A stretch of DNA of 64,000 nt from Streptomyces sp. NBC_01264 (GTDB taxonomy: Bacteria; Actinomycetota; Actinomycetes; Streptomycetales; Streptomycetaceae). Both the position numbers and the translations under genes were made by a program. Of this stretch, positions 999 through 47,651 are shown in pieces. Where the stretch lies: contig NZ_JAPEOX010000001.1 in assembly GCF_026340675.1 (NCBI RefSeq), positions 6,510,001 to 6,574,000 on the forward strand. Reading direction: 5' to 3'. Below the pieces are notes generated by a model. It was given only the letters and a program-made list of their open reading frames with translations. It was not told where the DNA came from and searched no databases. How positions within the stretch are numbered: the stretch's first letter is position 1; each line of letters starts with the position of its first letter.

Positions 999-1128
999 CC
1001 AGCCACACATTAGAAAAAAGTATTGCCAGCGGCCCGGTTGGGCCGTGCAGAACTTGCAGAAGATTCCTGGGGGTCGCCCCCAGACCCCTAAGAAGCTTCA
1101 GGCCCAACAAGGAGAGCAGGGAACCCAG

Positions 1129-2724
1129 ATGGCGGAGCTCACGATCCGGCCGGAGGAGATCCGGGACGCACTGGAGAACTTTGTCCAGTCGTACCAGCCG
1201 GACGCGGCCTCGCGCGAGGAGGTCGGAACGGTCAGCGTTGCCGGCGACGGCATCGCGAAGGTGGAGGGCCTGCCCTCCGCCATGGCGAACGAACTGCTGA
1301 AGTTCGAGGACGGAACCCTCGGTCTCGCCCTGAACCTCGACGAGCGCGAGATCGGTGCGGTCGTCCTCGGCGAGTTCAGCGGTATCGAGGAGGGCCAGCC
1401 GGTGCAGCGCACCGGTGAGGTGCTCTCCGTCGGCGTCGGCGAGGGCTACCTCGGCCGCGTCGTCGACCCGCTCGGCAACCCGATCGACGGTCTCGGCGAG
1501 ATCGCGACGGAGGGCCGCCGCGCCCTCGAGCTGCAGGCCCCCGGCGTCATGGTCCGCAAGTCGGTCCACGAGCCGATGCAGACCGGCTACAAGGCCATCG
1601 ACGCGATGGTGCCGGTCGGCCGTGGTCAGCGTCAGCTGATCATCGGTGACCGTCAGACCGGCAAGACCGCTCTTGCCGTCGACACGATCATCAACCAGCG
1701 CGACAACTGGCGCTCTGGCGACGTGAACAAGCAGGTCCGCTGCATCTACGTCGCCATCGGCCAGAAGGGCTCGACCATCGCGTCCGTTCGCGGCGCCCTG
1801 GAAGACGCCGGTGCGCTCGAGTACACGACGATCGTCGCCGCCCCGGCGTCCGACCCGGCCGGCTTCAAGTACCTGGCGCCGTACACCGGTTCGGCCATCG
1901 GCCAGCACTGGATGTACGCCGGCAAGCACGTCCTGATCATCTTCGACGACCTGTCGAAGCAGGCCGACGCCTACCGCGCCGTGTCGCTGCTGCTGCGCCG
2001 TCCGCCGGGCCGCGAGGCCTACCCGGGCGACGTCTTCTACTTGCACTCCCGTCTGCTGGAGCGTTGCGCCAAGCTCTCCGACGACATGGGTGCCGGTTCG
2101 ATGACCGGTCTGCCGATCGTCGAGACCAAGGCGAACGACGTGTCGGCGTTCATCCCGACCAACGTCATCTCCATCACCGACGGCCAGTGCTTCCTCGAGT
2201 CCGACCTGTTCAACGCGGGCCAGCGCCCGGCGCTGAACGTCGGTATCTCGGTCTCCCGCGTCGGTGGCTCGGCCCAGCACAAGGCCATGAAGCAGGTTTC
2301 CGGCCGTCTGCGCCTGGACCTCGCCCAGTACCGTGAGCTGGAGGCGTTCGCCGCCTTCGGTTCCGACCTGGACGCCGCGTCGAAGGCCTCGCTGGAGCGC
2401 GGCAAGCGTCTGGTGGAGCTGCTGAAGCAGGGCCAGTACCAGCCGATGCCCGTCGAGGAGCAGGTCATCTCCGTCTGGGCCGGTACCACCGGCAAGATGG
2501 ACGAGGTCCCGGTCAACGACATCCGTCGCTTCGAGTCGGAGCTGCTGGAGCACCTGCGCGTCTCGCGCAAGGACCTCCTCACCTCCATCGCGGACGGCGG
2601 CAAGATGTCGGACGACACCCTCACCTCCATCGCTGACGCCATCGCTGACTTCAAGCGTGGGTTCGAGACCTCGGACGGCAAGCTCCTGGGCGAGGACGCG
2701 CCGGCCGTCAACGTCTCCAAGTGA
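1129..2724 (+). CDS. atpA: ATP synthase F1 subunit alpha
   Basis: Alpha is the non-catalytic nucleotide-binding subunit of the F1 head. The protein is 531 residues and contains the Walker A motif GDRQTGKT in the sequence [14 protein letters not shown]. The ATG at 1129 follows an AAGGAG-type ribosome binding site and starts [15 protein letters not shown], the usual family start. The reading frame is open further upstream from a GTG at 1045, but that stretch is encoded by a dispersed GC-rich intergenic repeat (CCTGGGGGTCGCCCCCAGAC region) and is not protein-like. The 130-base gap after atpH is the largest break before atpG. Confidence 0.97.
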
Positions 2725-9011: not shown

Positions 9012-10231
9012 GTCCGTACCGCCTCTTCCTCCACGGGCAGCGTCGCCCGGACCTGCCAGACCGCGTCCGCGCGGCCCGCTTCGAATGCTCCGCCGAGCAG
9101 CTCCGTCCGCTCGCGCATGCCGATCAGACCGGCGCCGGAGCCGGGTGCGCGGGGGCCGGGGCGGTCCCCGTAGGGGGAGACGACCGTCACCCGCAGCGCG
9201 CCGGCCCCGCCCCTGGCCGCGCCCCTGGTCCCGGCCGCGAGGTCTTCGCGGGCCAGCCGGACGGTGACCGTGCCGGGGGCGGCGTGCTTGAGGGCGTTGG
9301 TCACCGACTCCTGGACGATCCGGTACGCCGCCAGCTCTACGGGGGCGGGCAGGGGCTCCCCGGACGGCCGGTCGTCACGGAGTACGAAGTCCAGCCCGCT
9401 CGCGGCCCCGTTCGTACGGGCCTGCTCCAGCAGGGCGTCCAGCCCGTCCAGCGAGGGCGTGGCGACGGCCTCCTGCCCGGCGCCCGCGTCCCGCAGCAGG
9501 CCGATCAGACGGCGCATCTCGGCCAGTCCCTGGACGCTGTTCTCGCGGATCACCCCGAGCGCCTCGCGGCTGGTGGCGGGGGAGTCGATGGAGAGCGCCG
9601 CGGTGGAGTGGATGGCGATGGCGGAGAGGTGGTTGGCCACCATGTCGTGCAGCTCGCGGGCCATCCGGGCGCGCTCGGCGACAATCGCCTGAGACCGGTC
9701 CATCTCGGCCAGCAGCGCGGTCTGCTCCGCGCGCAGCCGGGCGGCGATGGCGGCCTCGCGGTGGTTGCGCAGGGTGGCGCCGGTCAGCGCCGGACCGAAG
9801 CTGACGATGCCGGTGATCACGCCGATGAGCAGGGCCTGAGGGGTCCGCAGCCAGGCCACGGAGGCGATGGTGACGGCGATGGTGATCAGGCCGGTCTGGA
9901 CCGGGAGGCGGCGGGCCATGGCGGGTTTGCCGTAGACCACGGCCGCGTACATCAGATCGGTGAAGATCAGGACGGTGGCCAGGTTCCCCACGGTGAACTG
10001 GTCGGCGATCAGCCCCGCGGTGCCGACCGCCAGGGTCACCCGGGGCATGCTGCGGCGCAGCAGCTCCATCGGGCCGAGGGCCAGGAGCGGGACCAGGGCC
10101 GCCCAGGCGGGAAACAGCTCCCGGGTGGGGGAGCTGTACACCCCGAGCCACCACAGGAGCAGGCCGGCGGCCACGCTGCCCACGGCGAGCAGCACGTCGT
10201 CGCGGTGCGGTGGCGGGATCTTGAGGGTCAC
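9008..10231 (-). CDS. Sensor histidine kinase (HisKA_3 type)
   Basis: This is a 407-residue membrane sensor kinase. It has about four to five N-terminal hydrophobic segments (residues 13-150), a coiled linker, then the dimerisation/phospho-acceptor helix MARELHDMVANHLSAI (His about 195) typical of NarX/DesK-type kinases, the N-box YRIVQESVTNALKHA and a C-terminal G-box GSGAGLIGMRERTELLGG. The frame is open far upstream, but the GTG at 10231 is the best start since it begins VTLKIPPPHRDDVLL right before the first membrane segment. An ATG 20 codons further upstream is an alternative. The signal is unknown. Confidence 0.88.
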   Translation of the reverse strand: MTLKIPPPHRDDVLLAVGSVAAGLLLWWLGVYSSPTRELFPAWAALVPLLALGPMELLRRSMPRVTLAVGTAGLIADQFTVGNLATVLIFTDLMYAAVVYGKPAMARRLPVQTGLITIAVTIASVAWLRTPQALLIGVITGIVSFGPALTGATLRNHREAAIAARLRAEQTALLAEMDRSQAIVAERARMARELHDMVANHLSAIAIHSTAALSIDSPATSREALGVIRENSVQGLAEMRRLIGLLRDAGAGQEAVATPSLDGLDALLEQARTNGAASGLDFVLRDDRPSGEPLPAPVELAAYRIVQESVTNALKHAAPGTVTVRLAREDLAAGTRGAARGGAGALRVTVVSPYGDRPGPRAPGSGAGLIGMRERTELLGGAFEAGRADAVWQVRATLPVEEEAVRT

Positions 10232-35833: not shown

Positions 35834-36480
35834 AGCTTCTCCTCGGAGGCCTGTACGTACACCGCGCCCTGACCGGACAGCTCCAGCTGGAACGCCTCGC
35901 CCGAGCCGCGCCCGACCATGTCGCGCCAGCCCAGCGCCGTGGACAGCTTGTTGCGGACCTCGCCGTGATGGGCGACGTAGGCCTGCGGGTCCACGTGGAT
36001 CGGGCGGCTCGGGGTGATCGGCAGCTCGATGACCCCGCCGTGGGCCATCACCGCCACCGAGCCGTGGCCCTTGAGGGTGGTGGTGAACAGGCCCTGGCCG
36101 GTCACCTGGCCGCGCACCATGCCCATGACCCCGCCCTGCGCGCCCATGAACATCGTGCCCTGCTGGAGGGTGCCGTCGAAGGCGAGCAGCCGGTCGGACT
36201 CCACGTAGAGCGTCTCGCCGGTGAGGCTGATGACCTGGATGTGGTGGCCGCCGTGGCCGAACATCACGGTGCCGCTGCCCTCGACCTCCATCAGCGGGAC
36301 CTGCTCGTTCGCCACCCGGCGCCCGATCATGCCCATCACGCCGCCCTGGCCGCCGGTCAGGCTCGGGGTGAAGGAGACCTCGCCGCGGTACGCGAGCATC
36401 GCGCCGCGCTGGCTGTACATCTTCTGCCCCGGTACGACCTGGGCCTCGACCATCTTCGAGTTGATCTCGCGGAACGGCAT
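35830..36480 (-). CDS. AIM24 family protein (second of three)
   Basis: This is a 216-residue AIM24-like protein, MPFREINSKMVEAQVVPGQKMYSQRGAML..., with Gly-rich strand repeats such as GGVMGMIGRRV and GQGLFTTTLKGHGSV. ATG 36480 is adjoined by the stop of the upstream gene (TGATG). The frame extends upstream in sequence overlapping the first AIM24 gene, but that extension is a shadow. It is probably translated from one mRNA with its neighbours. Confidence 0.88.
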   Translation of the reverse strand: MPFREINSKMVEAQVVPGQKMYSQRGAMLAYRGEVSFTPSLTGGQGGVMGMIGRRVANEQVPLMEVEGSGTVMFGHGGHHIQVISLTGETLYVESDRLLAFDGTLQQGTMFMGAQGGVMGMVRGQVTGQGLFTTTLKGHGSVAVMAHGGVIELPITPSRPIHVDPQAYVAHHGEVRNKLSTALGWRDMVGRGSGEAFQLELSGQGAVYVQASEEKL

Positions 36481-37118
36481 CAGACGTCGCCCCCGATGGT
36501 GTTGCGCTCGCTGGGCTGCACGTACACCAGGCCCTCGCCCTCGAAGCGGATCTGGAACGCCTCGCCCGAGCCCTCGCCGATCAGCGTGCGGAAGGTCACG
36601 CCGGACTGGAAGGACTGCTGGAGGTTGCCGGTGTGCGCGATGTACGCGCCCGGGTCGACGGAGAGCGGGTACTGGGAGCTGACGCGCAGCACCACCGCCG
36701 GACCGTCGGAGGTGATCGCCGCCTGCCCGTTGCCCTCGACGGTGGTGGTGAACAGGCCGTTGCCCGTGCTCGCACCGCGCAGGCCGGTGAAGGTGGTGCC
36801 GGTGCGCAGGCCGGCATCGGTGCACAGCAGGTTGCTGGACTCGACGTACAGCTTCTCGCCGCGCAGATTGACCAGATTGATCTCACTCGCCCGGTCGGCG
36901 AAGAAGCAGGTGCCGTGACCCTGCACTTCCATCACGGTCATCTGCTCGCCGGTGAGCCGCCGGGTCACCATTCCGCGGAGGCCTTCGCCGCCGCCGGTCA
37001 TCTTCTTGAAGGCCATCTGGCCGTCGTACGCGACCATGGCGCCGTTCTTCGCTTTCACGGCGTCCCCGGTCAGGTCGACGGCGAGCACCTTGCTGCCTTG
37101 GAGTCGGAACTGAGCCAC
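36480..37118 (-). CDS. AIM24 family protein (first of three)
   Basis: This is a 212-residue AIM24 protein. It begins MAQFRLQGSKVLAVDLTGDAVKAKNGAMVAYDG and has the same strand repeats (GLFTTTVEGNGQAAI; GSGEAFQIRFEGEGLVYVQPSE). It is the promoter-proximal member of the three-gene operon. It is divergent from the DUF3817 gene at 37322, leaving a 203-base GC-rich intergenic stretch. Confidence 0.88.
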   Translation of the reverse strand: MAQFRLQGSKVLAVDLTGDAVKAKNGAMVAYDGQMAFKKMTGGGEGLRGMVTRRLTGEQMTVMEVQGHGTCFFADRASEINLVNLRGEKLYVESSNLLCTDAGLRTGTTFTGLRGASTGNGLFTTTVEGNGQAAITSDGPAVVLRVSSQYPLSVDPGAYIAHTGNLQQSFQSGVTFRTLIGEGSGEAFQIRFEGEGLVYVQPSERNTIGGDV

Positions 37119-37321
37119 GGGAAGACGTTATCCGCAGTGGGCGGCACCGAACAGGGCCCGTTGGCCGATATACGTCACGGTCCGGCACGATCGGGCACGG
37201 TCCGGCTCGGTCCGGTCGGGGTCCCGGCCCGGTCCGCCGGGACCCCGGGCCCCGCGCCAAGATCGCCCGGGGCGGCTGAGACACTGGGACGGACCCCCGG
37301 CATCCATCCCGAAGGTTCCAC

Positions 37322-37666
37322 GTGGACATCAAGACCGCTTCCGCCCTGCACCGGCTGCGCCTCATCTCCGTACCGGAGGCGCTCTCGTTCCCGGCGCTGC
37401 TGCTCTTCGGCTCGGTGCTGAGCCGGATCTCGGACATCGACTACCTGATGATGCCGCTCGGCGTCATCCACGGGATCCTGTTCGTCATCTACGGCGTCTT
37501 CCTGCTGGACGTCTGGTTCAAGGCGAAGTGGCCCCTGAAGAAGGTCGCGCTGTTCTTCCTGCTGGCGCTGGTCCCCTTCGGCGGGCTCTACGGCGACCGC
37601 CTGCTCAAGCGCGACGAGACGGCCGGCGTGCTCGCCGCCCGCGCCCGTGAGGCGGCCCGCGCATGA
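37322..37666 (+). CDS. DUF3817 family membrane protein
   Basis: This is a 114-residue protein with three membrane segments (about 19-37, 44-64, 73-90), a basic loop (KAKWPLKK) and a charged C-terminus. Its GTG start is at 37322. The stop overlaps the next gene start by four bases (ATGA), pairing it with the thiamine-binding-protein gene that the element interrupts. A second DUF3817 gene lies at 55243. Confidence 0.85.
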
Positions 37667-37815
37667 TGATCGCGTTCTCGGTGACCCCGCTGGGCGTCGG
37701 CGAAGAGGTGGGCGAGTACGTGGCGGACGCGGTCCGCGTCGTCCGCGCGTCGGGGCTCCCGAACCACACGGACGCCATGTTCACCACCATCGAGGGCGAA
37801 AGAGTACAGCTCTGA
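37663..37815 (+). pseudogene. MTH1187-family thiamine-binding protein gene, 5' half (interrupted)
   Basis: The ATG at 37663 overlaps the DUF3817 stop. The first 46 residues, [20 protein letters not shown]...[13 protein letters not shown], are the N-terminal half of a MTH1187/YkoF-like thiamine-binding protein. Four foreign residues (RVQL) and a stop follow, because a mobile element is inserted at the GEGE codons. The other half ([12 protein letters not shown]...) begins at about 44047. An intact protein would be about 100 residues with a ferredoxin-like fold. The truncated product is probably non-functional. Confidence 0.9.
37790..37805. other. Left attachment junction (attL)
   Basis: Host sequence reads to ATCGAGGGCGA, then changes to element sequence AAGAGTACAGC. 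The candidate crossover is the GA dinucleotide at 37798-37799, or the GG at 37795-37796. The exact core cannot be fixed without the empty site. Confidence 0.7.
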
Positions 37816-37918
37816 GGTCATGACGGAAGCCCCGGCCAGCACAGGGGGAGAGTGCCGACCGGGGCAAGCCCGACCACGCCGAACTGTCCTGCTCGCCGTC
37901 GCTCGGCGGGGCGGGAGC

Positions 37919-38299
37919 CTAGTACCTGCGATAGACGCGGATGGTCCGCTCAGCGACGCACACGGCCCCGTTGCGGAGGATCATCGTTCGGGTTGCTCCG
38001 GCCCGGTAGCGGAGATCGGCAATCGGGATCAGGTGCCCACCGGCTAAGACGTGATCACCGACTTTGAGTTCATGCGGCGGACAGTCCACGGGGGCCGTAC
38101 CCGGCGGGATGCGGACCGGGGGCTTCTCCCGTGGCGCGCGCCGTCTAAGGGGCACACAGCATGCTGTACGGGCGATCCACTGAAACCCTCCCGAGTCCAT
38201 CAGCCGCACCACTGTGGGGGCCGGGTAGAGCTTGACGATCTCGCCCCGGCTCTGCTGCTGCCGGTCGAACACCTTCTCACCCAGCTTGAAGCCGGTCAC
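37919..38299 (-). CDS. Hypothetical protein of the integrated element
   Basis: This is a 126-residue basic protein. It begins with a beta-rich KOW/SH3-like segment (FKLGEKVFDRQQQSRGEIVKLYPAP, then RLMDSGGFQWIAR) and has a second similar segment (ELKVGDHVLAGGHLIPIADL). The GTG start at 38299 overlaps the next gene's stop by four bases. No family assigned. It is the last gene before the left junction. Confidence 0.65.
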   Translation of the reverse strand: MTGFKLGEKVFDRQQQSRGEIVKLYPAPTVVRLMDSGGFQWIARTACCVPLRRRAPREKPPVRIPPGTAPVDCPPHELKVGDHVLAGGHLIPIADLRYRAGATRTMILRNGAVCVAERTIRVYRRY

Positions 38300-38508
38300 C
38301 GGGTCCGCCTCCGCTTGAGCCCCTGCGGGTCGGCACAGTCGATATGGCGGTACACCACCACGTCCGGCCCGTCAGGCTTCTCAAGGCTCCCCCGTCGGCA
38401 ACGTTCAAGCGTCTTGATCGGCCTCATGCAGGCGGGGCACATCTCACCCGCCGGAGCGAAGGTCTCGTATTCGAACCGGGTTGCGTCGGTCTCGCTGCTG
38501 GTCGGCAT
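38296..38508 (-). CDS. Small zinc-ribbon-like protein of the element
   Basis: This is a 70-residue protein starting MPTSSETDATRFEYETFAPAG. It has CPAC and a later H-x2-C pair (YRHIDCAD), a possible zinc-binding pattern, and a basic RRRTR end. ATG 38508 follows GAAGGG by 7 bases. The longer open frame begins upstream but lacks a good site. The function is unknown. Confidence 0.65.
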   Translation of the reverse strand: MPTSSETDATRFEYETFAPAGEMCPACMRPIKTLERCRRGSLEKPDGPDVVVYRHIDCADPQGLKRRRTR

Positions 38509-38598
38509 CGCTGCGCCCTTCGGTCGTCTGCCCGTGCCGGAGATCGTCCCGCCAGTCAGCGCGAGCACACAGGGACGCAACGTCCTACTTTTCCGCCC

Positions 38599-39810
38599 TT
38601 AGGCGACCCCCAGGAACGTCGCCAGTTTCCGCAGCCCCGGGGGCCTTGCCGAGCCTGCCCAGAGATCAGACACGATCGCTACGGCCAAGGTGTGGTGCCG
38701 CATCCACCCTGGGGCCACCTGCCGCAACTTCTCAAGCGCCTTCACGGCTCCGGCTGCGTCCCCGATGTCGGTGTGCGCACGGGCTACGTCCAGCAGAAGC
38801 CACGTCCGCCACGACGGGGGAGTGTCCGGGCTGAGCCGCATTCCCTTGGCCAGGGAAAGGGCTTCCTCCGGCCGTTCGTGCTGGACGGCCAGGCGAACCC
38901 GCTCGATACGCACTGACGACCGGCTGAACACGGACACCAGTTTGCCGTCAACGGGAGGCGGGAGCGTCGCCAGACGGCCGGCTGCCTTCTCGGCCGTCAC
39001 CATCATGTCGTTGGCGGTCTCGTAGTCGTCGCTGCGGGCGTACGACGTAGCCGCAGACATCAGCAGGCCGCCCCACACGCGGACACCCTCCGACGTGCCC
39101 GTGTGCTCCCGCTCCACCCCGTCCGCAGCGTGTACGGCCAGACTTCGGGCATCGTCCAGCCGGGCCTGGCGCTGGTAGGCCCACGCCACGGAGTTGGAGA
39201 CCATCGGCGCTAGCAATGGGTCCGACGAATCCCCGGCGGCAGCGTAGGCACGCTCCAGTGCGGACAGTGCCAGGTCGGTCTTACCGAGCCGGATTGCGAG
39301 GTGCCCGCCGAGCTGGAGTGCCTTGCCCAGTGCTGCTTGACCGGCTGCGCGTTGTTCGGGATTTCCCACCGCAGCGAGTAGGCGCGCGTCAGCGATGATG
39401 CCCGGCAGAACGTCCATGAGCCGGCCGAACTCCGCCGAGTGGTACAGCGTCCACCCCTCCGCCAGTTCGGCCCGCAGAAGGGGCAGTGAGAGCTGTTCAA
39501 CCCCCGCTGGCTCAACAGGCGAAGCGAACAAGGGCGGCATGATCGCACGTCGCACGGCTACGAGCTGAGGCGGTTCGGCATCGCCGCTGGACGGTACGCC
39601 GGGCGGATCCCCCAGCAGGCCCGTCAGCTCCACACCGAGCCCCTTGGCGAGTGAATGCAGCGTGGGTAGGCGGGCGCTGTGCTTCCGGTGCTGCTCAAGT
39701 TTCCGGATCACGTCCACGGACACGCCGGAACGCTCGGCAAGCCCCTCTTGAGTGAGGTCAGCGAGTCGGCGCAGTCTGGCCATGCGGTCGCCCAGGTGCT
39801 CAGTAGCCAT
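38599..39810 (-). CDS. XRE-family regulator with TPR-like helical region
   Basis: This is a 403-residue protein with an N-terminal Cro/C1 helix-turn-helix (MARLRRLADLTQEGLAERS then GVSVDVIRKLEQH) and a long alpha-helical C-terminal region with TPR-like repeats (ALSALERAYAAAGDS, AVKALEKLRQVAP). Proteins of this size and architecture are common Streptomyces regulators and occur on mobile elements. It may control excision or maintenance of the element. It has its own upstream intergenic region. Confidence 0.85.
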   Translation of the reverse strand: MATEHLGDRMARLRRLADLTQEGLAERSGVSVDVIRKLEQHRKHSARLPTLHSLAKGLGVELTGLLGDPPGVPSSGDAEPPQLVAVRRAIMPPLFASPVEPAGVEQLSLPLLRAELAEGWTLYHSAEFGRLMDVLPGIIADARLLAAVGNPEQRAAGQAALGKALQLGGHLAIRLGKTDLALSALERAYAAAGDSSDPLLAPMVSNSVAWAYQRQARLDDARSLAVHAADGVEREHTGTSEGVRVWGGLLMSAATSYARSDDYETANDMMVTAEKAAGRLATLPPPVDGKLVSVFSRSSVRIERVRLAVQHERPEEALSLAKGMRLSPDTPPSWRTWLLLDVARAHTDIGDAAGAVKALEKLRQVAPGWMRHHTLAVAIVSDLWAGSARPPGLRKLATFLGVA

Positions 39811-40137
39811 GAATCAGAAGCTACGCCCGAGTGGTGCGTCTGTGTGATCGACGCCAAAACCCGTACAGGGAGCGGCCCGCCATCACGTTGCGGTCCCTGA
39901 TCTGCCCCTTACGGACCCCCTCCCCACCCCTTAACAGGGTCGTTCTCGGGTGCCTTGCGGGGCATTCCCACTGATCAAGTGGCCAATGGCACCGGGGAAA
40001 AGGGCTTGCACCTAGCGCGCGCATCCCGAGCTTGGGCCGGGATCGCCGGAGGGCACTTCGGCTGAACTTTGAAGGCACCCTCCTCTCGGTGGCCTCAACG
40101 CCTTGTTTCGGCCCCGGGTTCCGGCCAGCCGCCGGCC
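39811..40137. other. Intergenic region upstream of the XRE gene (327 bases)
   Basis: I see no convincing gene here. It probably holds the promoter of the XRE gene (transcribed leftward) and the 3' end region of the zinc-ribbon gene. No clear inverted repeat was noted. Confidence 0.4.
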
Positions 40138-40335
40138 CTAACCTCTGCCGCCTCGGGCCTGGCGGTCCAGGAACTCGATCACTCGCGTTTCCGAACGTAG
40201 AAGTCGCTCTCGCTGCTCAGGAGGGAGAGAAGCCAGTAGGTCGACCAGGACTCGCTTTCGGGTGACGTACACCATGTTGCCGGAGTAGATCCGGCAGCTA
40301 GAACACCAGGTGAGTCCGATGCAGCGCTCGAACAT
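40138..40335 (-). CDS. Zinc-ribbon protein, N-terminus uncertain or decayed
   Basis: From the ATG at 40335 the product is 65 residues (MFERCIGLTWCSSCRIYSG, then RKRVLVDLLASLPPEQRERLLRSE). Protein-like sequence continues upstream in the same frame to about 40473 (SWDTIPDGDRRVCAACRTPVC..FHPPESS), giving CAAC and CSSC pairs that would make a full zinc ribbon. It lacks any ATG, GTG or TTG before the in-frame TGA at 40474-40476. Either the start codon has been lost or a truncated form is made. Similar short actinomycete proteins begin near the SWDT motif, as far as I recall. Confidence 0.6.
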   Translation of the reverse strand: MFERCIGLTWCSSCRIYSGNMVYVTRKRVLVDLLASLPPEQRERLLRSETRVIEFLDRQARGGRG

Positions 40336-40603
40336 GGAGGACTCGGGCGGATGGAACCGATACTGGTACGAGCAGACGGGCGTTCGGCAGGCGGCGCAGA
40401 CTCGTCGATCGCCATCGGGAATCGTGTCCCAGCTCCCGACCTTTCGCCAACGCTGTCGCCCGACCGATGCTCTTCAAGTCGTCATGCCGAGCATTCTCCC
40501 TCACATTGATTCGCCCAGCACAGCCGTCCGAGGAAGACCGATAGCCCCAGATAGCAGGAAGACCGTCCACCACAGCGGGCAGACGGTCTCTCGGAGGTAC
40601 GGG

Positions 40604-41182
40604 CTACTTGCTCTCGTCCAGCGCCCGGTACAGCGTTGCGCGGGACACCCCGAGGGCCTTGGCAATGGCCGTGACGCTCTCTCCCTTGGCCTTCCTGGCC
40701 TTAGCCGCAGCGAGCTTGTCCGCGTCCATCACGGCCGGACGGCCGCCCACGCGTCCCTGAGCCCTGGCAGCGTCCAGACCCGCCCGGGTCCGGTCCTTGA
40801 TCAGGCTCCGCTCAAACTCCGCCATGGCGCCCACCACCTGAAGCATGAGCCGCCCGTCCGGGGTGTTCGGGTCGATGCTCGCCAGCGCACCCGTCAGCAC
40901 CTTGAAGCCGATCCCACGCGCAGCGAGCGAGTCCACCAGGGTCACGAGGTCGATCAGCGAGCGAGCGAACCGGTCCAGCTTCCACACGCACAGGGTGTCC
41001 CCGGGGCGGGCGTAGTCCAGCGCGGCCGTCAACTCCGGGCGGTCCGTGTTCTTGCCGCTCGCCTTGTCCGTGAAGATCCGGGCGCAGCCTGCCTCAGTCA
41101 GCGCGTCGTGTTGCAACTGTGCTTCCTGGTCATCGGTGGAGACTCGGGCGTATCCGATCAGGTGTCCTGTGGTCGTCGTCAT
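40604..41182 (-). CDS. Small serine recombinase (resolvase/invertase)
   Basis: This is a 192-residue serine recombinase with catalytic Ser15 in GYARVSTDDQ, the active-site Arg region VWKLDRFARSL, MLQVVGAMAEFERSLI and a C-terminal helix-turn-helix (VTAIAKALGVSRATLYRAL). It resembles Tn3-type resolvases and DNA invertases. ATG 41182 is chosen; a TTG 6 codons upstream is an alternative. A set of inverted repeats immediately upstream looks like its binding site. Confidence 0.92.
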   Translation of the reverse strand: MTTTTGHLIGYARVSTDDQEAQLQHDALTEAGCARIFTDKASGKNTDRPELTAALDYARPGDTLCVWKLDRFARSLIDLVTLVDSLAARGIGFKVLTGALASIDPNTPDGRLMLQVVGAMAEFERSLIKDRTRAGLDAARAQGRVGGRPAVMDADKLAAAKARKAKGESVTAIAKALGVSRATLYRALDESK

Positions 41183-41198
41183 GCAGAGATCGTCGCAC

Positions 41199-41313
41199 AA
41201 CCCGTCTCAAAACCTCAAGGGTTTTCGAGGGGTTCTGAGACGGGTTTTGAAACACGGATCGGGTGCCCTCGGGGTGCTGTCGCAGGTGTCTCATAAACCA
41301 TCGTTTGAGAGAC
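41199..41313. promoter_or_regulatory. Candidate res site of the resolvase
   Basis: A 16-bp inverted repeat with one mismatch (AACCCGTCTCAAAACC at 41199-41214; GGTTCTGAGACGGGTT at 41231-41246) is followed by a second dyad at 41288-41313 (GTCTCATAAAC, 4-base spacer, GTTTGAGAGAC). Read in one orientation, all four arms contain GTCTCA-like half-sites (GTCTCA-N-AAC). Arrays of this type directly upstream of a serine resolvase gene are typical of res sites with crossover and accessory subsites. Confidence 0.7.
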
Positions 41314-41409
41314 GGGCGTCAGTGGTCACGCGCTGCAACCGTCCTCCCCAGACCCGTACGCACCGAGCGGGTGAGCACCTAACCGGTGCTGCGGGTGGTG
41401 CTCCAGGGG

Positions 41410-42135
41410 TCATCCCCTGGGGTCCGCCTCAGGTGCCACGGCCCCGCGCCATCCCTCGTAGCCGGCCAGCTTCCGGCGTGCACCGAAGCGCTTGTCCATC
41501 GCTGTGAACAAAGCGCGCTTGCCCGCCGTCGTCCCCATGTTCCGAGCGAGTACCGGTTCCGCCGCACAGAATGCCTCCCACACGACCGACGTGCGGACGT
41601 GCGCGCTGTGCGGTGCCGTCCCCAGCATCCGGACCCATGCGGCCGGATCATTCAGCGGGGCGCGGAAGGCGTCGAACTGGGAAGCCAGCGAGAGGAGCTG
41701 AGTGGCGCGGGCGTCGGACGCGGACTCCACCTCAGATGCCACGGTGGCGATATCGCGGACGACGGAGGGTGCAACTTCGGCCGGTGCGGGGAGGGAGTCC
41801 AGCTCTTGGCGCAGCCTGCCCACCTCGGCGTAGTGGTGTTCCTGCTCCTCGTCGCTCTGTGCATCCTCCGCCCTGTTCCGTGCCTCGTCCAGGGATTCCC
41901 GCAGTGCTCTCTGACGTTCCTTGTTGGACGCATCCGCCTCCACCCCCTCCACCAGGGAGCGCAGCCAACCGCCCATATCTCGGCGGATCAGCGGCCAGTC
42001 CCGCCACTCACCGGCCGGAGTGGTCCACTGAGCCCCGTTCCAAACGAACGGCATGGGCGTTGCGGCCCTGTCGGCGTACTCGCTAGCTGCTTCGAGTGCC
42101 TTGCGTGCTGTCGTGTCAGCTATGTACTTACTCAA
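41410..42135 (-). CDS. Hypothetical protein of the element
   Basis: This is a 241-residue acidic, mainly helical protein. The central region is a coiled coil (ESLDEARNRAEDAQSDEEQ). The C-terminal third is better ordered (WVRMLGTAPHSAHVRTSVVW, then MDKRFGARRKLAGYEGWRG) and looks like a nucleic-acid- or protein-binding domain that I cannot name. TTG 42135 is preferred because GAGGGGG lies 10 bases upstream. It could be a partner in replication or transfer, but no motif supports this. Confidence 0.7.
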   Translation of the reverse strand: MSKYIADTTARKALEAASEYADRAATPMPFVWNGAQWTTPAGEWRDWPLIRRDMGGWLRSLVEGVEADASNKERQRALRESLDEARNRAEDAQSDEEQEHHYAEVGRLRQELDSLPAPAEVAPSVVRDIATVASEVESASDARATQLLSLASQFDAFRAPLNDPAAWVRMLGTAPHSAHVRTSVVWEAFCAAEPVLARNMGTTAGKRALFTAMDKRFGARRKLAGYEGWRGAVAPEADPRG

Positions 42136-42191
42136 ATGTGCCAAACCCCCTCAATAGCAACTTGCAACACCTTCTCTCCCCGCTGTCCGCA

Positions 42192-42236
42192 GATCGCGAA
42201 GCGATCGAGGACCCCCACAGGTGACCAAAGGTGACC
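42192..42236. promoter_or_regulatory. Dyad and direct repeats in the lower-GC intergenic region of the element
   Basis: The 373-base gap 42136-42508 has no gene and is visibly AT-richer than its surroundings. It contains GATCGC-GAA-GCGATC (42192-42206) and two AGGTGACC direct repeats spaced by 2 bases (42219-42226, 42229-42236). These could be operator sites for the XRE regulator or an origin-like element; which of these is open. Confidence 0.5.
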
Positions 42237-42508
42237 CGAGAACCATTCAAAGAGTGATCCCAGCTGTCTATGAAACCCCTGGTCAAACCTCGTTTAGGTG
42301 AAGAGAGAGAAGTGAACAACAAAACCACATAGAAGAGAAGTTGGAACGGTGCCCAACACCGTCATTCGTCACACCGTCACACTCTCCCTCCGACGACCGT
42401 AGGGGTATCGGCTGACAGCGCCCCGGCGCCTCACGCGCTCACAGGAGCGCCAGACGGCCCGCCACCGGGTTTCCCCAGCGACGGGTCGTGACGGAAGCTC
42501 AGGCGGGC

Positions 42509-43981
42509 TTATGAGGCCTCTTGTCGCGCTACGTCAGCCAACAGGTCCCGTCGGATCTCCTCATGCTGTTCCGGCGTCAGCAGGTCGACCCTGCGGGCCG
42601 GTGCTTCGCCTTCGATCCTGGCGATGGCGGCAAGCTCTGCTTCCGCGACGTCCTCCGGCTCCGGACCCCATTCGACCGTCAGGCGATCCGCCGCTTCACG
42701 CGGGTGCAGGGTCACCCGAAGATTGGCGAGCGTGAGGAGGCGCCGACGCCCGGCCATGTCCTCGGCCTCCCACGCCTGGCCCATCGTGCGCCCCGTCGGT
42801 ACGGCCACCTCTCGGGTCTCCGGATCGTGTGCGGCCAGCAGACGCGTGTACGCGTCCTCCAACTCCTTCGCCTTGCGCTCAAGGGTCGGCAGCATCAGCA
42901 TGCCCGCCGTCGCCATGCGTTCGGCGACTCGATCGGCTTGCTCCTGGATCTCCTCCATGTCCGCCGACAAATCGTTGCCGCCCTCAAGGTGGATTAGGAC
43001 TTCCCTCATACCGCCGAACACCTTCAGGAACTCGTCCCGTACCCGCTGGTCGAGAGTTTCCGCATAGATGGTGGTGTGGCCCGCCTTGCAGCGGTAGAGC
43101 GGTACGCCCTTATCCGACGTTCCTCCGTTCAGCTTGCAGCCCCGGTAACACACGGACATGTCGGAGCACATGGGTGTGGCACGTCGCGGGGCGCGGTTCT
43201 TGCCCGTGGCCAGTGCCTCCATGCGGTCGCGTGCCGCCTTCAACTCCGCAGCGGAGAGGATCGGGTCCGCGAACTGGACGGGGGTGACACCATCGGCGGC
43301 CGTAATCAGCTCACCCTTGTGCGCCCGCTGGCCACGCAGGGTCGGGGCTTTCAGCAGTCGTCGCCACTGGGGCTCGCTGACACCGACGATCCGGGCTGTG
43401 CCGGCTACCGTCCCAGCGTTCACCAGGGCGGTCATGGCTTCACGGATGGCCGAAGCCTCCTCCGGGTGCACCTCAAGGTAGGCGGCGTCGTCACGTCGTA
43501 CGATCCGGTAACCGCGAGGAGCGCGCCCCGATGCCCAGCGCCCTTGCTGACGACGTGTGGCGTGGCCTTCCGTGATGCGGTCTTTGATCATCTCGCGTTC
43601 CCACTCCGCCAGCGCCGCGAGCACCACGGCAACCATGCGGCCGGTCGGGGTCAGCGTGTTGATCGTGCCGTCAGTGGTCGCGATCTTCACGCCGTAGTGC
43701 TCGCCCCACGCGACGAGCCGGAGGAACTCGGACACGCTGCGGGCGTACCGGTCCAGCTTCCACGCGATGACGAGATCAGGGCGAGAGGCCATGAGCGCAC
43801 CCATCTGCTCTCGCGCCTCAAGTGGCTTGGCGCCGGACACCCCGGCGTCCGGGTACTCCACGGCGTCAGCGGGGTCGTACCCGTTCGCCAGCAGCCACCG
43901 CTGGGCCGCCTGGCGTTGCGTTTCCAGAGATGCGGAGTCGTCCGACTCTCGCGACAACCGCAGGTAAATGGCAATGCGCAT
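42509..43981 (-). CDS. Large serine integrase
   Basis: This is a 490-residue large serine recombinase. The N-terminal catalytic domain has Ser10 in [12 protein letters not shown] and [16 protein letters not shown]. The recombinase domain ([17 protein letters not shown]...) and zinc-ribbon domain ([11 protein letters not shown]...YRCKAGH) follow, and a coiled-coil segment ends the protein. The size is close to Bxb1-type integrases. ATG 43981 follows GGGAGGGGG. It lies about 50 bases from the right junction, as usual for int-attP order. It would integrate the element into the thiamine-binding-protein gene. Confidence 0.95.
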
Positions 43982-44039
43982 GCCTGAATCCCCCTCCCAC
44001 CCCAAACACAGGGGTCCTATGTTGTCAGACCTACCTGCT

Positions 44040-44055
44040 TTCCGGGGAGTGGGAC
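44040..44055. other. Right attachment junction (attR)
   Basis: Element sequence CCTGCTTTCCGGG changes to host sequence GAGTGGGACGAGG. The G-E-W-D-E-V codons of the thiamine-binding protein resume here. The candidate core is GA at 44047-44048. Confidence 0.7.
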
Positions 44056-44208
44056 GAGGTGATGGACGTGGTCAAGCGCGCGGTGGCCGCCGTGGAGGAG
44101 CGCGCCCCGCGGGTCTCCTTCATCCTCAAGGCCGACATCCGCCCCGGCGTCACGGACGGCATGACGTCCAAGATGGAAACGGTGGAACGCCACCTCGCCG
44201 GGGGCTGA
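44047..44208 (+). pseudogene. MTH1187-family thiamine-binding protein gene, 3' half (interrupted)
   Basis: The sequence from the right junction encodes [21 protein letters not shown] and [27 protein letters not shown], the C-terminal half of the protein whose start is at 37663. It has no start codon of its own that would make a normal protein. Joined to the left half it would give a product of about 100 residues. It is followed closely by the convergent PIN toxin gene. Confidence 0.9.
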
Positions 44209-44247
44209 CCGGATCACACGGTCCCCCGGCGTGCACGGTCCGTCGGC

Positions 44248-44736
44248 TCACACGGCCTGGACGTGCACGTCGGGCGGATCGAGCACCGACAGGTACGCGG
44301 TGATGTCCTCGGGGTCGCTGGTGAAGATCACCGCACTGCCGTGCTTCGCGGCGGCCAGGGCCACGAGGGCGTCCACTGCGTCCGGCCGCTTCTTCGGCGG
44401 GAGTTCCGCCTCCCCGAGGGCGGTGCCGATGCGGCGCCAGTCCGGCAGGTCGAATCCCGTCGCGCAGGCGATGCACTCGGGACGGCCCGCCCCGGTCTCG
44501 CGCATCGGCGGGGCCGAAGTCCGTGCCTGCGGCACGGAGCAGTCCCTGAGCGTCGTGGCCAGGGCATGGACCAGTGCGGGGTTGGGCCGCCACACCTGTG
44601 CCAGTACGGGCCCGAGGACGAGGGCCCGGTGCGGGGTCTCCTTCAGGGCCTCGTGCAGGTGGACCGCCTTGGCCTTGCGGTCGGCGAGAGCGATGAGCAT
44701 CCCGGTGTCGTAGACGGGGACCCTCGCCGGGCTCAC
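44248..44736 (-). CDS. PIN-domain toxin (VapC-like)
   Basis: This is a 162-residue PIN-domain protein of the kind that cleaves RNA as a toxin. The N-terminal acidic Asp lies in VPVYDTGMLIALADRK (Asp10), with further acidic residues in KRPDAVDALVALAAA and FTSDPEDITAYL. The GTG start at 44736 overlaps the antitoxin stop (GTGA), giving coupled translation. A longer open frame upstream is a shadow. The pair lies beside the integration site but outside the element. Confidence 0.85.
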   Translation of the reverse strand: MSPARVPVYDTGMLIALADRKAKAVHLHEALKETPHRALVLGPVLAQVWRPNPALVHALATTLRDCSVPQARTSAPPMRETGAGRPECIACATGFDLPDWRRIGTALGEAELPPKKRPDAVDALVALAAAKHGSAVIFTSDPEDITAYLSVLDPPDVHVQAV

Positions 44737-45056
44737 GCGGCTTCGCCGGAACGCGCACCGGATCGATCCGCCCCGTAGACGAGATCGAGGGCGGCTTCGA
44801 CCTCCTGCCGCTCCCGCTCCGTCAGTTCCGGGACGGCCGCGTCCGCGTGGCGTGCGTTCGGGGCCTCGGCTTCGGCCGCCGCGATCAGGGCGTCCACGGC
44901 CGCGAACTGCGCCTCTACGGCCTCGGTCTCGGCCATCTGCCGGGTCGCGGCGTGCACGAGGTACGCGGAGACGTCCAGGCCGGCTCGCTCGGCATGCTGC
45001 CGGATGCGCTCGGCCTGTTCCCGCTCGAGGCTGATGCTGATCCTGGTCTTGGCCAC
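44733..45056 (-). CDS. Ribbon-helix-helix antitoxin (VapB-like)
   Basis: This is a 107-residue protein. The N-terminal KTRISISLEREQAERIRQHAERAGLDVSAYL is the ribbon-helix-helix DNA-binding form of many antitoxins. The acidic C-terminal half would wrap the toxin. It is directly upstream of the PIN toxin and overlaps it by four bases. Such antitoxins usually repress their own promoter; no operator is identified in the short gap to the divergent gene. Confidence 0.85.
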   Translation of the reverse strand: MAKTRISISLEREQAERIRQHAERAGLDVSAYLVHAATRQMAETEAVEAQFAAVDALIAAAEAEAPNARHADAAVPELTERERQEVEAALDLVYGADRSGARSGEAA

Positions 45057-45112
45057 AGCCGTAGTGTATGACGCGTATTACGCTCCGGCCAGGCCTGGCA
45101 GACTCTGGACCC

Positions 45113-45739
45113 ATGGCCACCTCCACGATCAAGCACGCCGTCCCGTACCACTCCCAGTGGGAGTCCGCCGCGCTCGTGCCCGAGTTCGTCGCGGGCGGCG
45201 ATGCGGCGCGGGATCCGCTATGGGGCGGGTCCGGGGCGGACTCGGCCGAGGAGTACGCCTTCTGGGCGCCCCGCATGTGCGGCGTGGCCTGTCTGCGGAT
45301 GGTGCTCGGGCGGCTGGGGCTGACGGTGCCGCCCTCGGTGGAGCTGGTGAAGGAGGCCTGCGGGGCCGGGGCGTACGTGCGGGACGGGGACTCCGTGCAG
45401 GGGCTGATCTACCGGCCCTTCGCCGAGTACGTGAACGCCCGCTGGGGCCTGGACGCCCGCTCGGTGCCCGTACTGGACCACCAGACCGTCCGGGACACGC
45501 TCGCCGCGGGCGGTCTGGCGATGCTGTCGGTCCATTGGTCGATCCGTACCCTGGCCCCCGCCGTCGAGGCCCGGGGCGGTCATCTGGTGCTCGCCGTCGG
45601 GGCCACCGAGGACTCCGTCCTGGTGCACAATCCCTCCGGCTTCCCCGGTGCTTCGCAGCAGTACGCGCCCGTCCCCTGGGCCGACCTGGACCGGTTCTAC
45701 GCCGGACGCGGCATCCTGATCGGCGGCCGGGCCGGCTGA
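45113..45739 (+). CDS. C39-like peptidase-fold protein
   Basis: This is a 208-residue protein with the papain-like C39 features: the Cys in APRMCGVACLRMVL, the His in GGHLVLAVGA and the Asn/Asp position in VHNPSGFPG. It starts at ATG 45113 (MATSTIKHAVPYHSQWES); the Q for the oxyanion hole is in YHSQWES. It lacks a signal peptide. Possible roles include cleavage of a peptide or an isopeptide-type reaction; the neighbourhood gives no substrate. Confidence 0.82.
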   Translation: MATSTIKHAVPYHSQWESAALVPEFVAGGDAARDPLWGGSGADSAEEYAFWAPRMCGVACLRMVLGRLGLTVPPSVELVKEACGAGAYVRDGDSVQGLIYRPFAEYVNARWGLDARSVPVLDHQTVRDTLAAGGLAMLSVHWSIRTLAPAVEARGGHLVLAVGATEDSVLVHNPSGFPGASQQYAPVPWADLDRFYAGRGILIGGRAG

Positions 45740-45862
45740 GGGCGCGGCCGGCGCCCCGCGCCCGGTGCGGTGACCCGTTCGGCCCTGGCCGCCAGGGCAC
45801 GGAACGGAACCGCCCGGTCGGGTGCATCCCGTTCGACTGGCTGAGGTATCTCCCCTTTCGTT

Positions 45863-45876
45863 GGGGTACGTACCCC
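45863..45876. promoter_or_regulatory. 14-bp perfect palindrome before the glycosyltransferase gene
   Basis: GGGGTACGTACCCC lies 23 bases before the GTG start. Its position suggests an operator for the cslA-glxA pair, or a ribosome-site-proximal hairpin. No regulator is identified. Confidence 0.55.
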
Positions 45877-45899
45877 GGTTTCGAGCGCTGGAGGAAACC

Positions 45900-47651
45900 G
45901 TGCGGCAGGAAGCCTTCGACTACGGGACCCACAGCAGGCTGGCCGGCCCCTGTGAGGAGCCGGATCCCGCCGTCGCCTACCGCGTGAGGTACCGCTCCCT
46001 GCTCGCCCGCGAGGACCTCCGGACCCGAATACGGGCCGTCGCGCTCATGACCCTCGCCCCCGCCGCCGCCACCGGGCTGCTGCTCTACCTCGTCTGGCCC
46101 ACGCACCGGACCGTCCGGGAGGGCGGCGAGGGCTGGCTCGTGCGGCTCGACACCGTGATGCTCGGATCCGTCGCCCTGATCATGCTCTTCATGGTGGTCA
46201 ACGTGGTCTCCGTCGCCCACGCCACGATGGTCGCCCGGGACCCCGTCCCGGCCCCCGCCGAGCCCGGCACCCGCGTCGCCTTCCTCACCACCTACGTCCC
46301 CGGCAAGGAACCGCTCTCCATGGCGGCCGCCACCCTGCGCGGGGCCGTGGCCGTCCGCCACGACGGGCCGCTCGACGTCTGGCTGCTCGACGAGGGCGAC
46401 GACCCCGGGGCCAGGGAGCTGTGCGCGGAGCTCGGCGTACGCCACTTCACCCGCAAGGGCGTCCCCGGGTGGAACACGGCGAAGGGGGCGCACCGGGCGC
46501 GGACCAAGCACGGCAACTACAACTCCTGGCTGGCCCGGCACGGCGCGGAGTACGACTACTTCGCCTCCGTGGACACCGACCACGTGCCGCTTCCCCAGTA
46601 CCTGGAGCGGATGCTCGGCTTCTTCCGCGACCCCGACATCGCCTTCGTCGTCGGCCCGCAGGTCTACGGCAACTACACCGCCTCGGTCACCAAGGCCGCC
46701 GAATCCCAGCAGTACCTCTTCCACGCCCTGATCCAGCGCGCGGGCAACCGCTACGGCGCCCCCATGTTCGTCGGCACCAACAACGCGGTCCGGATCAGCG
46801 CCCTGCGCCAGGTCGGCGGGCTCTACGACTCCCTCACCGAGGACATGGCCACCGGCTTCGAGCTGCACCGGAGCAGGAACCCCGGCACCGGGCGGTTCTG
46901 GCGGTCCGTCTACACCCCCGACGTGCTCGCCGTGGGAGAGGGGCCGAGCACCTGGACCGACTTCTTCACGCAGCAGCTGCGCTGGTCGAGAGGGACGTAC
47001 GAGACCCTCCTGCGGCAGTACTGGCGCGGCTGCTTCCGGATGCCCCCCGGCCGCTGGCTCAACTACACCCTGATGCTCGTCTACTACCCGATGACCGCCG
47101 TCAACTGGCTCCTCGGCGTCCTCAGCTGCGTGCTGTTCCTGTGGTTCGGCGCCTCCGGCACCCAGGTCTCCTCCGAGGTCTGGCTGATGCTCTACACCGA
47201 CGCCGCCGCCCTCCAGGTCGGCCTGTACCTGTGGAACCGCCGCCACAACGTCTCGCCCCACGAGCCGGAGGGTTCCGGCGGGCTCGCCGGCATGGCCATG
47301 TCGGCCGTCTGCGCGCCCGTCTACCTGAGGTCGCTCGGCTCGGCGGTGCTGCGCACCCGCGGCCGTTTCGTCGTCACCCCCAAGGGCGGCACCGCCAGCC
47401 CCGACCGGCCCGCGACCTTCCGCATCCACCTCTTCTGGGCCGCCGTCCTGCTCGTCTCCCTCGCGGCCTCCGTGCGCTACGAGCACACCCACGCGGCCAT
47501 GCGCGTCTGGGCGGTGCTCGCCCTGGCCGTCACCCTCGCCCCGCCGGCCGTATGGGCCGTGACGGAGCTGCGCGCCCGGACGGCCCGGGGTGCGCCCGGC
47601 GCGGGCCCCGAGCCGGAGCAGGCGTTCGCGACGACCGCGGGAGGGAACTGA
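45900..47651 (+). CDS. cslA: Cellulose synthase-like family 2 glycosyltransferase
   Basis: This is a 583-residue membrane GT2 enzyme with the processive-synthase motifs LLDEGDD, SVDTDH, TEDMATGFEL and QQLRWSRG. It has two N-terminal and four to five C-terminal membrane segments. The GTG at 45900 has GGAGG 5 bases upstream. It pairs with the following GlxA-like gene, as CslA-GlxA do in Streptomyces, where they make a beta-glucan-type polysaccharide at the hyphal tip. The symbol is by similarity; S. coelicolor has a cslA elsewhere, so this could be a second copy. Confidence 0.88.
   Translation: MRQEAFDYGTHSRLAGPCEEPDPAVAYRVRYRSLLAREDLRTRIRAVALMTLAPAAATGLLLYLVWPTHRTVREGGEGWLVRLDTVMLGSVALIMLFMVVNVVSVAHATMVARDPVPAPAEPGTRVAFLTTYVPGKEPLSMAAATLRGAVAVRHDGPLDVWLLDEGDDPGARELCAELGVRHFTRKGVPGWNTAKGAHRARTKHGNYNSWLARHGAEYDYFASVDTDHVPLPQYLERMLGFFRDPDIAFVVGPQVYGNYTASVTKAAESQQYLFHALIQRAGNRYGAPMFVGTNNAVRISALRQVGGLYDSLTEDMATGFELHRSRNPGTGRFWRSVYTPDVLAVGEGPSTWTDFFTQQLRWSRGTYETLLRQYWRGCFRMPPGRWLNYTLMLVYYPMTAVNWLLGVLSCVLFLWFGASGTQVSSEVWLMLYTDAAALQVGLYLWNRRHNVSPHEPEGSGGLAGMAMSAVCAPVYLRSLGSAVLRTRGRFVVTPKGGTASPDRPATFRIHLFWAAVLLVSLAASVRYEHTHAAMRVWAVLALAVTLAPPAVWAVTELRARTARGAPGAGPEPEQAFATTAGGN

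Follow-up and report, generated by a model that had tools for sequence, protein, structure and literature searches.

A thiamine-binding protein gene of Streptomyces as a recurrent integration site for small elements with a large serine integrase

Introduction

What separates the two halves of a thiamine-binding protein gene in Streptomyces sp. NBC_01264, and has the same gene been entered in other genomes? The gene belongs to the MTH1187 family (PF01910, Thiamine_BP) and lies in a stretch of 64,000 nucleotides (the window; GCF_026340675.1, contig NZ_JAPEOX010000001.1, forward-strand positions 6,510,001 to 6,574,000), within which all positions below are counted. It is interrupted, with the 5' half in register to codon 45 and the 3' part resuming at 44046. 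The intervening DNA is very probably a small site-specific mobile element that entered the gene through its own large serine integrase, by recombination between the attachment site of the element (attP) and that of the host (attB). Serine integrases swap strands at the central dinucleotide of short dyad sites (sections of PMC4111918). An earlier note had proposed such an element, with junctions at 37797 and about 44047, some 6.25 kb between them, an integrase beside the right junction and a possibly new integration site.

Results

One gene in two parts

37322..37666, plus strand: DUF3817 membrane protein gene, left flank, directly upstream of the target (PF12823, 7.4e-20)
37663..37815, plus strand: 5' half of the MTH1187-family thiamine-binding gene, an open reading frame (ORF) of 50 amino acids (aa) (PF01910, 4.3e-14, profile 2-45 of 92)
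44046..44207, plus strand: 3' half of the thiamine-binding gene, 54 aa (PF01910 profile 42-92, 42.4 bits)

The DUF3817 gene ends within the thiamine-binding gene, which starts at 37663. Beyond Gly codon 45, where the crossover is placed, the 5'-half ORF continues as E-R-V-Q-L-stop, encoded by the element. A Pfam scan of the 3' half as a lone 54-aa piece gave no match. A search of the whole 10.67-Mb genome for PF01910 however returned both halves above the cut-off (49.5 bits for profile 2-46 and 42.4 bits for profile 42-92) and nothing else, with a weak paralogue remaining below it at 22.8 bits. A strong full-length PF01910 copy is present in 34 of 36 other genus genomes searched; G002 and G021 have the weak paralogue only.

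Uninterrupted versions of the locus are common. The closest relative found, G074, matches the joined window flanks with 96.6% identity over 1,060 bp, across the junction, and its gene is intact. Because the joined flanks align without a break and both halves match PF01910 above the cut-off, the halves are, by these comparisons, one gene rather than members of two families. A motif search recovered an uninterrupted site at 28 of 30 family loci, 27 reading E-G-(E/D)-W and one (L036) E-G-D-S-W; the other two (L013 and L015) fall outside the motif, the motif search being all that was applied to them. The site is also unbroken in 10 of the 11 loci closest to the window's left flank (L070-L080), the eleventh, L071, being the occupied locus of G257. 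In G074, a decayed partial second copy follows the intact thiamine-binding gene as a tandem pseudogene (L070 about 1100-1295, minus strand; about 84% identity over 37 aa).

The thiamine-binding gene was not found beside DUF3817 in G188, G309, G090 and G021 (L081-L084, picked for a short flank alignment or a short family match), though the flank is kept, and it therefore seems dispensable. Weak integrase matches near DUF3817 in G309 and G090 were considered as other occupants of the site and judged by eye to be chance.

Junctions and attachment sites

37795..37796, plus strand: attL crossover dinucleotide GG (dyad centre of the rebuilt attP; position shared with L004, G108 and G057)
37797..37822, plus strand: attP right half-site (P'), now within attL (sequence comparison of elements and phage attPs)
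44018..44043, plus strand: attP left half-site (P), now within attR (sequence comparison of elements and phage attPs)
44044..44045, plus strand: attR crossover dinucleotide GG (rebuilt-attP dyad)

The crossover is best read as the GG of Gly codon 45 (E-G-E-W), which delimits an inserted block of 6,249 bp (37795-44043). When the window attP is rebuilt from both ends and centred on GG, its arms pair at 15 of 25 positions, with 11 at the best other centre, and 15 pairs were reached in 1 of 10,000 shuffles. The same GG centre was found in three other elements that keep both ends (L004 15, G108 19 and G057 16 of 25). GG is also present in the attB of empty loci. As scored for attP, the site is thus a short imperfect dyad around a dinucleotide common to attP and attB. 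A crossover at GA (37798-99/44047-48), suggested by the longest overlap, was rejected, as the dyad is centred on GG instead in four elements and two phages.

The integrase

42509..43981, minus strand: large serine integrase, 490 aa from ATG (PF00239, phrog_95, Bxb1-like fold)

The 5' end of the integrase gene adjoins the right junction, and an alternative TTG start extends the ORF to 44005 (498 aa). The N-terminus matches PF00239 (1.4e-29), and phrog_95 covers residues 7-453 of the 498-aa form. The resolvase catalytic domain retains its active-site serine and arginines, with S10, R8, R78 and R81 invariant in 49 sequences. The predicted fold aligns with Bxb1 integrase over model residues 1-439, nearly the full length, and together with the phrog_95 span this points to the large C-terminal DNA-binding region that, with its recombinase, zinc-ribbon and coiled-coil domains, characterizes the phage-integrase type of large serine recombinase. 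The protein is presumably active as a recombinase. Three more serine recombinases are encoded elsewhere in the genome (L001-L003); they carry PF07508 and are 26-28% identical to the integrase.

The proposal of the earlier note thus stands for the split itself: the halves are parts of one gene, G074 reads through the junction, the integrase lies where it was placed, and the GG crossover sets the insert within a few bases of the proposed ends. Empty loci, the rebuilt-attP dyad and repeated insertion by related integrases agree on this. What the note missed is that the element is of a known kind, that the site is used repeatedly and that insertions occur in both orientations.

Repeated use of the site

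An integrase relative at E <= 1e-40 was detected in 7 of 392 genus genomes, and six of these carry it in the thiamine-binding gene: the window genome, G257, G258, G057, G277 and G108 (G257, G258, G277 and G108 correspond to L004, L005, L010 and L011). The five integrases other than the window's are 65-85% identical to it. In the seventh genome, G206, the integrase (41%) lies elsewhere and the thiamine-binding gene is intact. G630 (65-66%), again with the integrase inside the thiamine-binding gene, came from 297 genomes of the wider family, a set that overlaps the genus set, and a further genus search (362 genomes) returned the same six carriers besides the window genome. All seven integrase copies of at least 65% identity with surroundings in view are hence in this gene.

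The elements span 1.8-6.9 kb: 6,249 bp in the window, 4,371 in L004, 6,910 in G108, 2,209 in G057 and 2,480 in G630, with L005 (about 1.8 kb) and L010 (about 1.9 kb) estimated by eye from coordinates. L005 retains about 9 codons (by eye) and L010 29 codons of the 5' half, and both were placed through their flanks and the 3' half. Among the ORFs scanned in L004 and G108, cargo is variable, comprising NUDIX and HATPase genes in L004 and genes for a methyltransferase, an HNH protein and a DDE transposase in G108. A full prophage was sought in G108 over a further 60 kb, but the 3' half lies only 6.9 kb off (tblastn, composition statistics off), so the site holds none.

Phages of the integrase clade

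Native, uninterrupted attPs lie just upstream of the integrase gene (int) on phage contigs, with arms pairing at 20 of 25 (L048) and 19 of 25 (L052) positions around a GG core. Contig L051 has an equally paired attP (about 9920-9970; 20 of 25) but a TG core, and its integrase is 59% identical to the window's. Given this core, the L051 phage should use another attB. L049 and L050 gave the same match values as L051, the dyads being scored for L048, L051 and L052. The P' arm of G108 agrees with that of L052 at 24 of 26 positions (0 of 10,000 shuffles) and with that of L048 at 23; for the P arms the figure is 19 of 26. The L051 arms are nearly as similar to those of G108 (18 and 21), so that the arms are informative about the clade and the core about the site.

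The viral contig L052 (39.5 kb, of which 16.9 kb was read) carries int followed by ORFs in temperate-siphophage order. Dubu and phiSASD1, two Streptomyces phages, have large terminases 75% identical to the one on L052, and we take further ORFs of the contig to be structural genes by their look. Presumed phage ORFs lie on either side of the L052 attP, which therefore seems not to be an integrated end. With its GG core and arms like those of G108, this phage may integrate in the thiamine-binding gene; no L052-type prophage is present there among the elements seen. For nine of the 120 integrase homologues listed (132 found), the longest contig measures 39-42 kb. Matching phage records are all below 60% identity to the window integrase, the best 30 of 887 standing at 29-31%. 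Dubu, with an annotated integrase of 542 aa, and phiSASD1 are not among these 30; their likeness to L052, whose attP has the GG core, is in the terminase.

Integration polarity

The integrase gene runs antisense to the target in the window, L004, L005 and L010, and sense in G057, G108 and G630. Read in the direction of int, the core is CC in the window and L004, and GG in G057, G108 and the phages L048 and L052. For L005, L010 and G630, where the site is lost or changed, polarity is taken from gene position alone. In work on Bxb1 ascribed to Ghosh in 2003, integration orientation reportedly depends on the central dinucleotide alone, and the two polarities could accordingly be the outcome of a core change. 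The polarity of phage integration is said to have been switched in this way in the laboratory, for phiC31, by Smith in 2004. To our knowledge, polarity reversal of a serine-integrase system is known only as a laboratory result.

In a tree of 70 integrases, antisense copies appear in two places. A single origin of the antisense elements is not rejected (approximately unbiased test, p-AU 0.247, with unlabelled close relatives of L010 included). A value of p-AU 0.0005 against one antisense clade was discarded as ill-posed, as it left out those close relatives. We consider it likely that phages and tiny Streptomyces elements of one clade share a single attB, the Gly codon of the target gene, and enter it in both polarities, with the polarity reversed in nature and perhaps more than once.

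Other content of the element

37919..38299, minus strand: 126-aa ORF, left end, no family found (Pfam, PHROG and other family searches)
38296..38580, minus strand: 94-aa cysteine-rich ORF, left end, in part like phiBT1 gp25.2 (46% over 54% of the query)
38599..39810, minus strand: 403-aa XRE-TPR regulator (phrog_5823, 1.7e-115)
40604..41200, minus strand: 198-aa small serine recombinase of resolvase/invertase type (PF00239, 8.1e-46, and HTH_7)
41196..41249, no strand: inverted repeat upstream of the small recombinase, candidate res-like site (19-nt arms, 89% complementary)
41410..42144, minus strand: 244-aa protein conserved in Streptomyces and Kitasatospora (58 homologues)

The listed genes of the element are all on the minus strand. 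A partial relative of the 94-aa ORF is left in L005 (37 aa, 54%). The XRE-TPR regulator is 78% identical to a transcriptional regulator of phage phiHau3, the gene of which lies near the phage integrase. A 91-aa ORF (40298-40573) had no match in any scan. Besides the window element, three others have a relative of the small recombinase (four of seven in all): an intact one in G108 (66%), one in two pieces in G630 (82-85%) and one reduced to the C-terminal 65 residues in L004 (91%). Together with the inverted repeat, examined in the window only, it perhaps serves dimer resolution or represents an element within the element.

The 244-aa protein has no Pfam or PHROG family and no convincing PDB fold (AlphaFold mean pLDDT 91). 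Two homologues, P0125 (70%) and P0140 (62%), have longest contigs of 5802 and 9857535 bases, which match to the base those of the integrase relatives P0003 and P0008; they probably share contigs with them for this reason. The size of the protein resembles that of phiC31 gp3, the directionality factor that suggested the comparison, which did not include the gp3 sequence itself. The candidacy was dropped on the missing PHROG match and PDB fold, and a tblastn search of 50,697 phage records (E 0.1) was likewise empty.

No capsid, terminase or tail gene, and no relaxase, conjugation ATPase or FtsK-type transfer gene, was recognized in the element; the scan covered seven ORFs, with smaller overlapping ones lying outside it. 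PADLOC gave nothing beyond weak matches of helix-turn-helix type, to the XRE-TPR protein (best 1.1e-05), and a DrmD match of 0.007 for the 244-aa protein. No RNA family reached the Rfam gathering score in 36000-46000, and there are no transfer RNA (tRNA) or transfer-messenger RNA (tmRNA) genes within the window. The G+C content of the element is about 0.64-0.69 in 1-kb steps, vs 0.72-0.74 in the right flank and 0.69 in the left flank. To the right of the target gene are a ribbon-helix-helix protein (44733-45056; PF21983, NikA-like, barely above the cut-off) and, by eye, a PIN-like reading frame, the tested ORF having no Pfam match.

Discussion

The locus is best explained by site-specific integration. 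The integrase would pair attP with a conserved stretch of the target gene, the attB ...TTCACCACCATCGA(G/A)-GG-NGAGTGGGACGAGG, both sites would be cut at the central GG and the strands exchanged. The outcome would be attL as B-GG-P' at 37795 and attR as P-GG-B' at 44044, with the gene broken at codon 45. Members of the integrase clade occur on siphophage-like viral contigs (<=39.5 kb) and, at this attB, in small chromosomal elements (1.8-6.9 kb) whose cargo varies. Since the central dinucleotide is all that tells a serine integrase the orientation of a site, a GG core in the direction of int would give a sense insertion and a CC core, as in the window, an antisense one at the same attB. The split gene, the empty sites, the structure of the attachment sites, the repeated use, the two polarities and the fold of the integrase are all apparent from the sequences. 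Excision would presumably involve a directionality factor. Spread between cells likely depends on outside help, as no structural, relaxase or transfer gene was recognized.

Several observations weigh against this explanation. The seven of seven insertions in the thiamine-binding gene are no census, as more proteins of at least 65% identity are listed with their surroundings out of view. Pfam scans did not detect PF07508 (Recombinase) in the integrase, and no directionality factor was identified among the element proteins. Just four elements out of seven retain both ends with a GG-centred dyad: the left end is missing from L005 and L010, which give no dyad score, and in G630 the attR core has changed to AG, with 11 of 25 pairs at that centre and the best centre (14) elsewhere. 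The base after the attR core is G, vs C or T in many attBs; several empty sites carry G there as well.

The phage members of the clade raise the question of whether the small elements are themselves reduced phages. A phage of about 40 kb like L052 could have lost nearly everything except the integrase, the regulator and a few early genes, so that small size would reflect decay. The integrases on phage contigs, the nine listed homologues with contigs of 39-42 kb, the regulator shared with phiHau3 and the visible decay of L005, L010 and G630 all fit such a history. Yet all seven elements are small, cargo differs between them, and the small recombinase recurs in more than half. No capsid, terminase or tail gene was recognized in the seven window ORFs or in those scanned in L004 and G108; for the remaining elements, all four <=2.5 kb, the comparison was with window proteins only. 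Seven independent decays without one full prophage in the sample could have occurred but make a less simple account, and we regard a prophage remnant as possible though doubtful.

If the small elements were instead mobilized or packaged by the phages, as satellites, this would explain why they share the phage attB, and the GG core, attP arms and related integrases are indeed common to both. A shared attB follows equally from common descent of the integrase, and no packaging, capsid-size or terminase gene was recognized in the window element, where no search was made for pac or cos sites. A satellite is hence unlikely. An artefact, in which the halves are separate gene families or the assembly is wrong, might be suspected from the 3' half matching nothing in Pfam by itself. 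It is scarcely credible given that the halves match adjacent parts of PF01910, that the flanks run uninterrupted in G074 and that related elements occupy the same gene in six other genomes. Integration of a small mobile element by its own integrase accounts best for the sum of these observations.

The locus adds a Streptomyces attB, in a gene that is widespread yet missing from some species. Its integrase is compact (about 490 aa), and attP and attB can be proposed to the base. The system is a candidate for an orthogonal integration vector. The presence of sense and antisense copies at one site offers a direct test of how polarity evolves.

Relation to known systems

The integrase falls in its own clade. 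Bxb1- and phiC31-type integrases have the fold and catalytic residues in common with it, while the window clade is about 490 aa long without a PF07508 match; Bxb1 integrase was matched by fold, and phiC31 integrase aligns weakly (21%, E 0.003). Bxb1 and phiC31 use other attB sites. The suggestion of the earlier note that the site may be new holds up so far: no publication was found on the thiamine-binding gene as a target of integrases or prophages, though an uncommented row in survey supplements is possible. Thiamine gave no hit in the main texts of PMC12924846 (the Samy paper) and of the two integrase surveys PMC10083194 and PMC12884075.

The closest parallel in kind is phiJoe/SCO2603. According to the relevant sections of PMC5311408, a serine integrase is there likewise common to a temperate phage and to small elements in the phage attB, with variable size and cargo. 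SCO2603 elements measure 3.9 kb in S. coelicolor, some consisting of recombination genes only and some reaching up to 40 kb, and the predicted crossover is GG as here (same sections of PMC5311408). The phiJoe attP also lies next to int, as in the window element. The attB differs, being a radical SAM gene (SCO2606-like) entered 74 bp from its end in the account of PMC5311408, whereas here the insertion is mid-gene in a PF01910 gene and not in a SCO2606-like one. The phiJoe integrase aligns with the window's at 26.5% over residues 53-277 only, which does not indicate orthology; the comparison did not extend to the SCO2603 protein. Unlike in the description of phiJoe/SCO2603, both polarities occur here. 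In the laboratory switching of the Smith 2004 and Ghosh 2003 work, both references of PMC4111918, polarity is reportedly likewise set by the central dinucleotide alone; here both polarities are natural at one attB. Elements of this kind are thus known from phiJoe/SCO2603. What is new, as far as searched, is the gene targeted, the clade of the integrase and the occurrence of both polarities. The present elements extend the phiJoe/SCO2603 picture, in that small integrase elements at phage attachment sites recur in Streptomyces.

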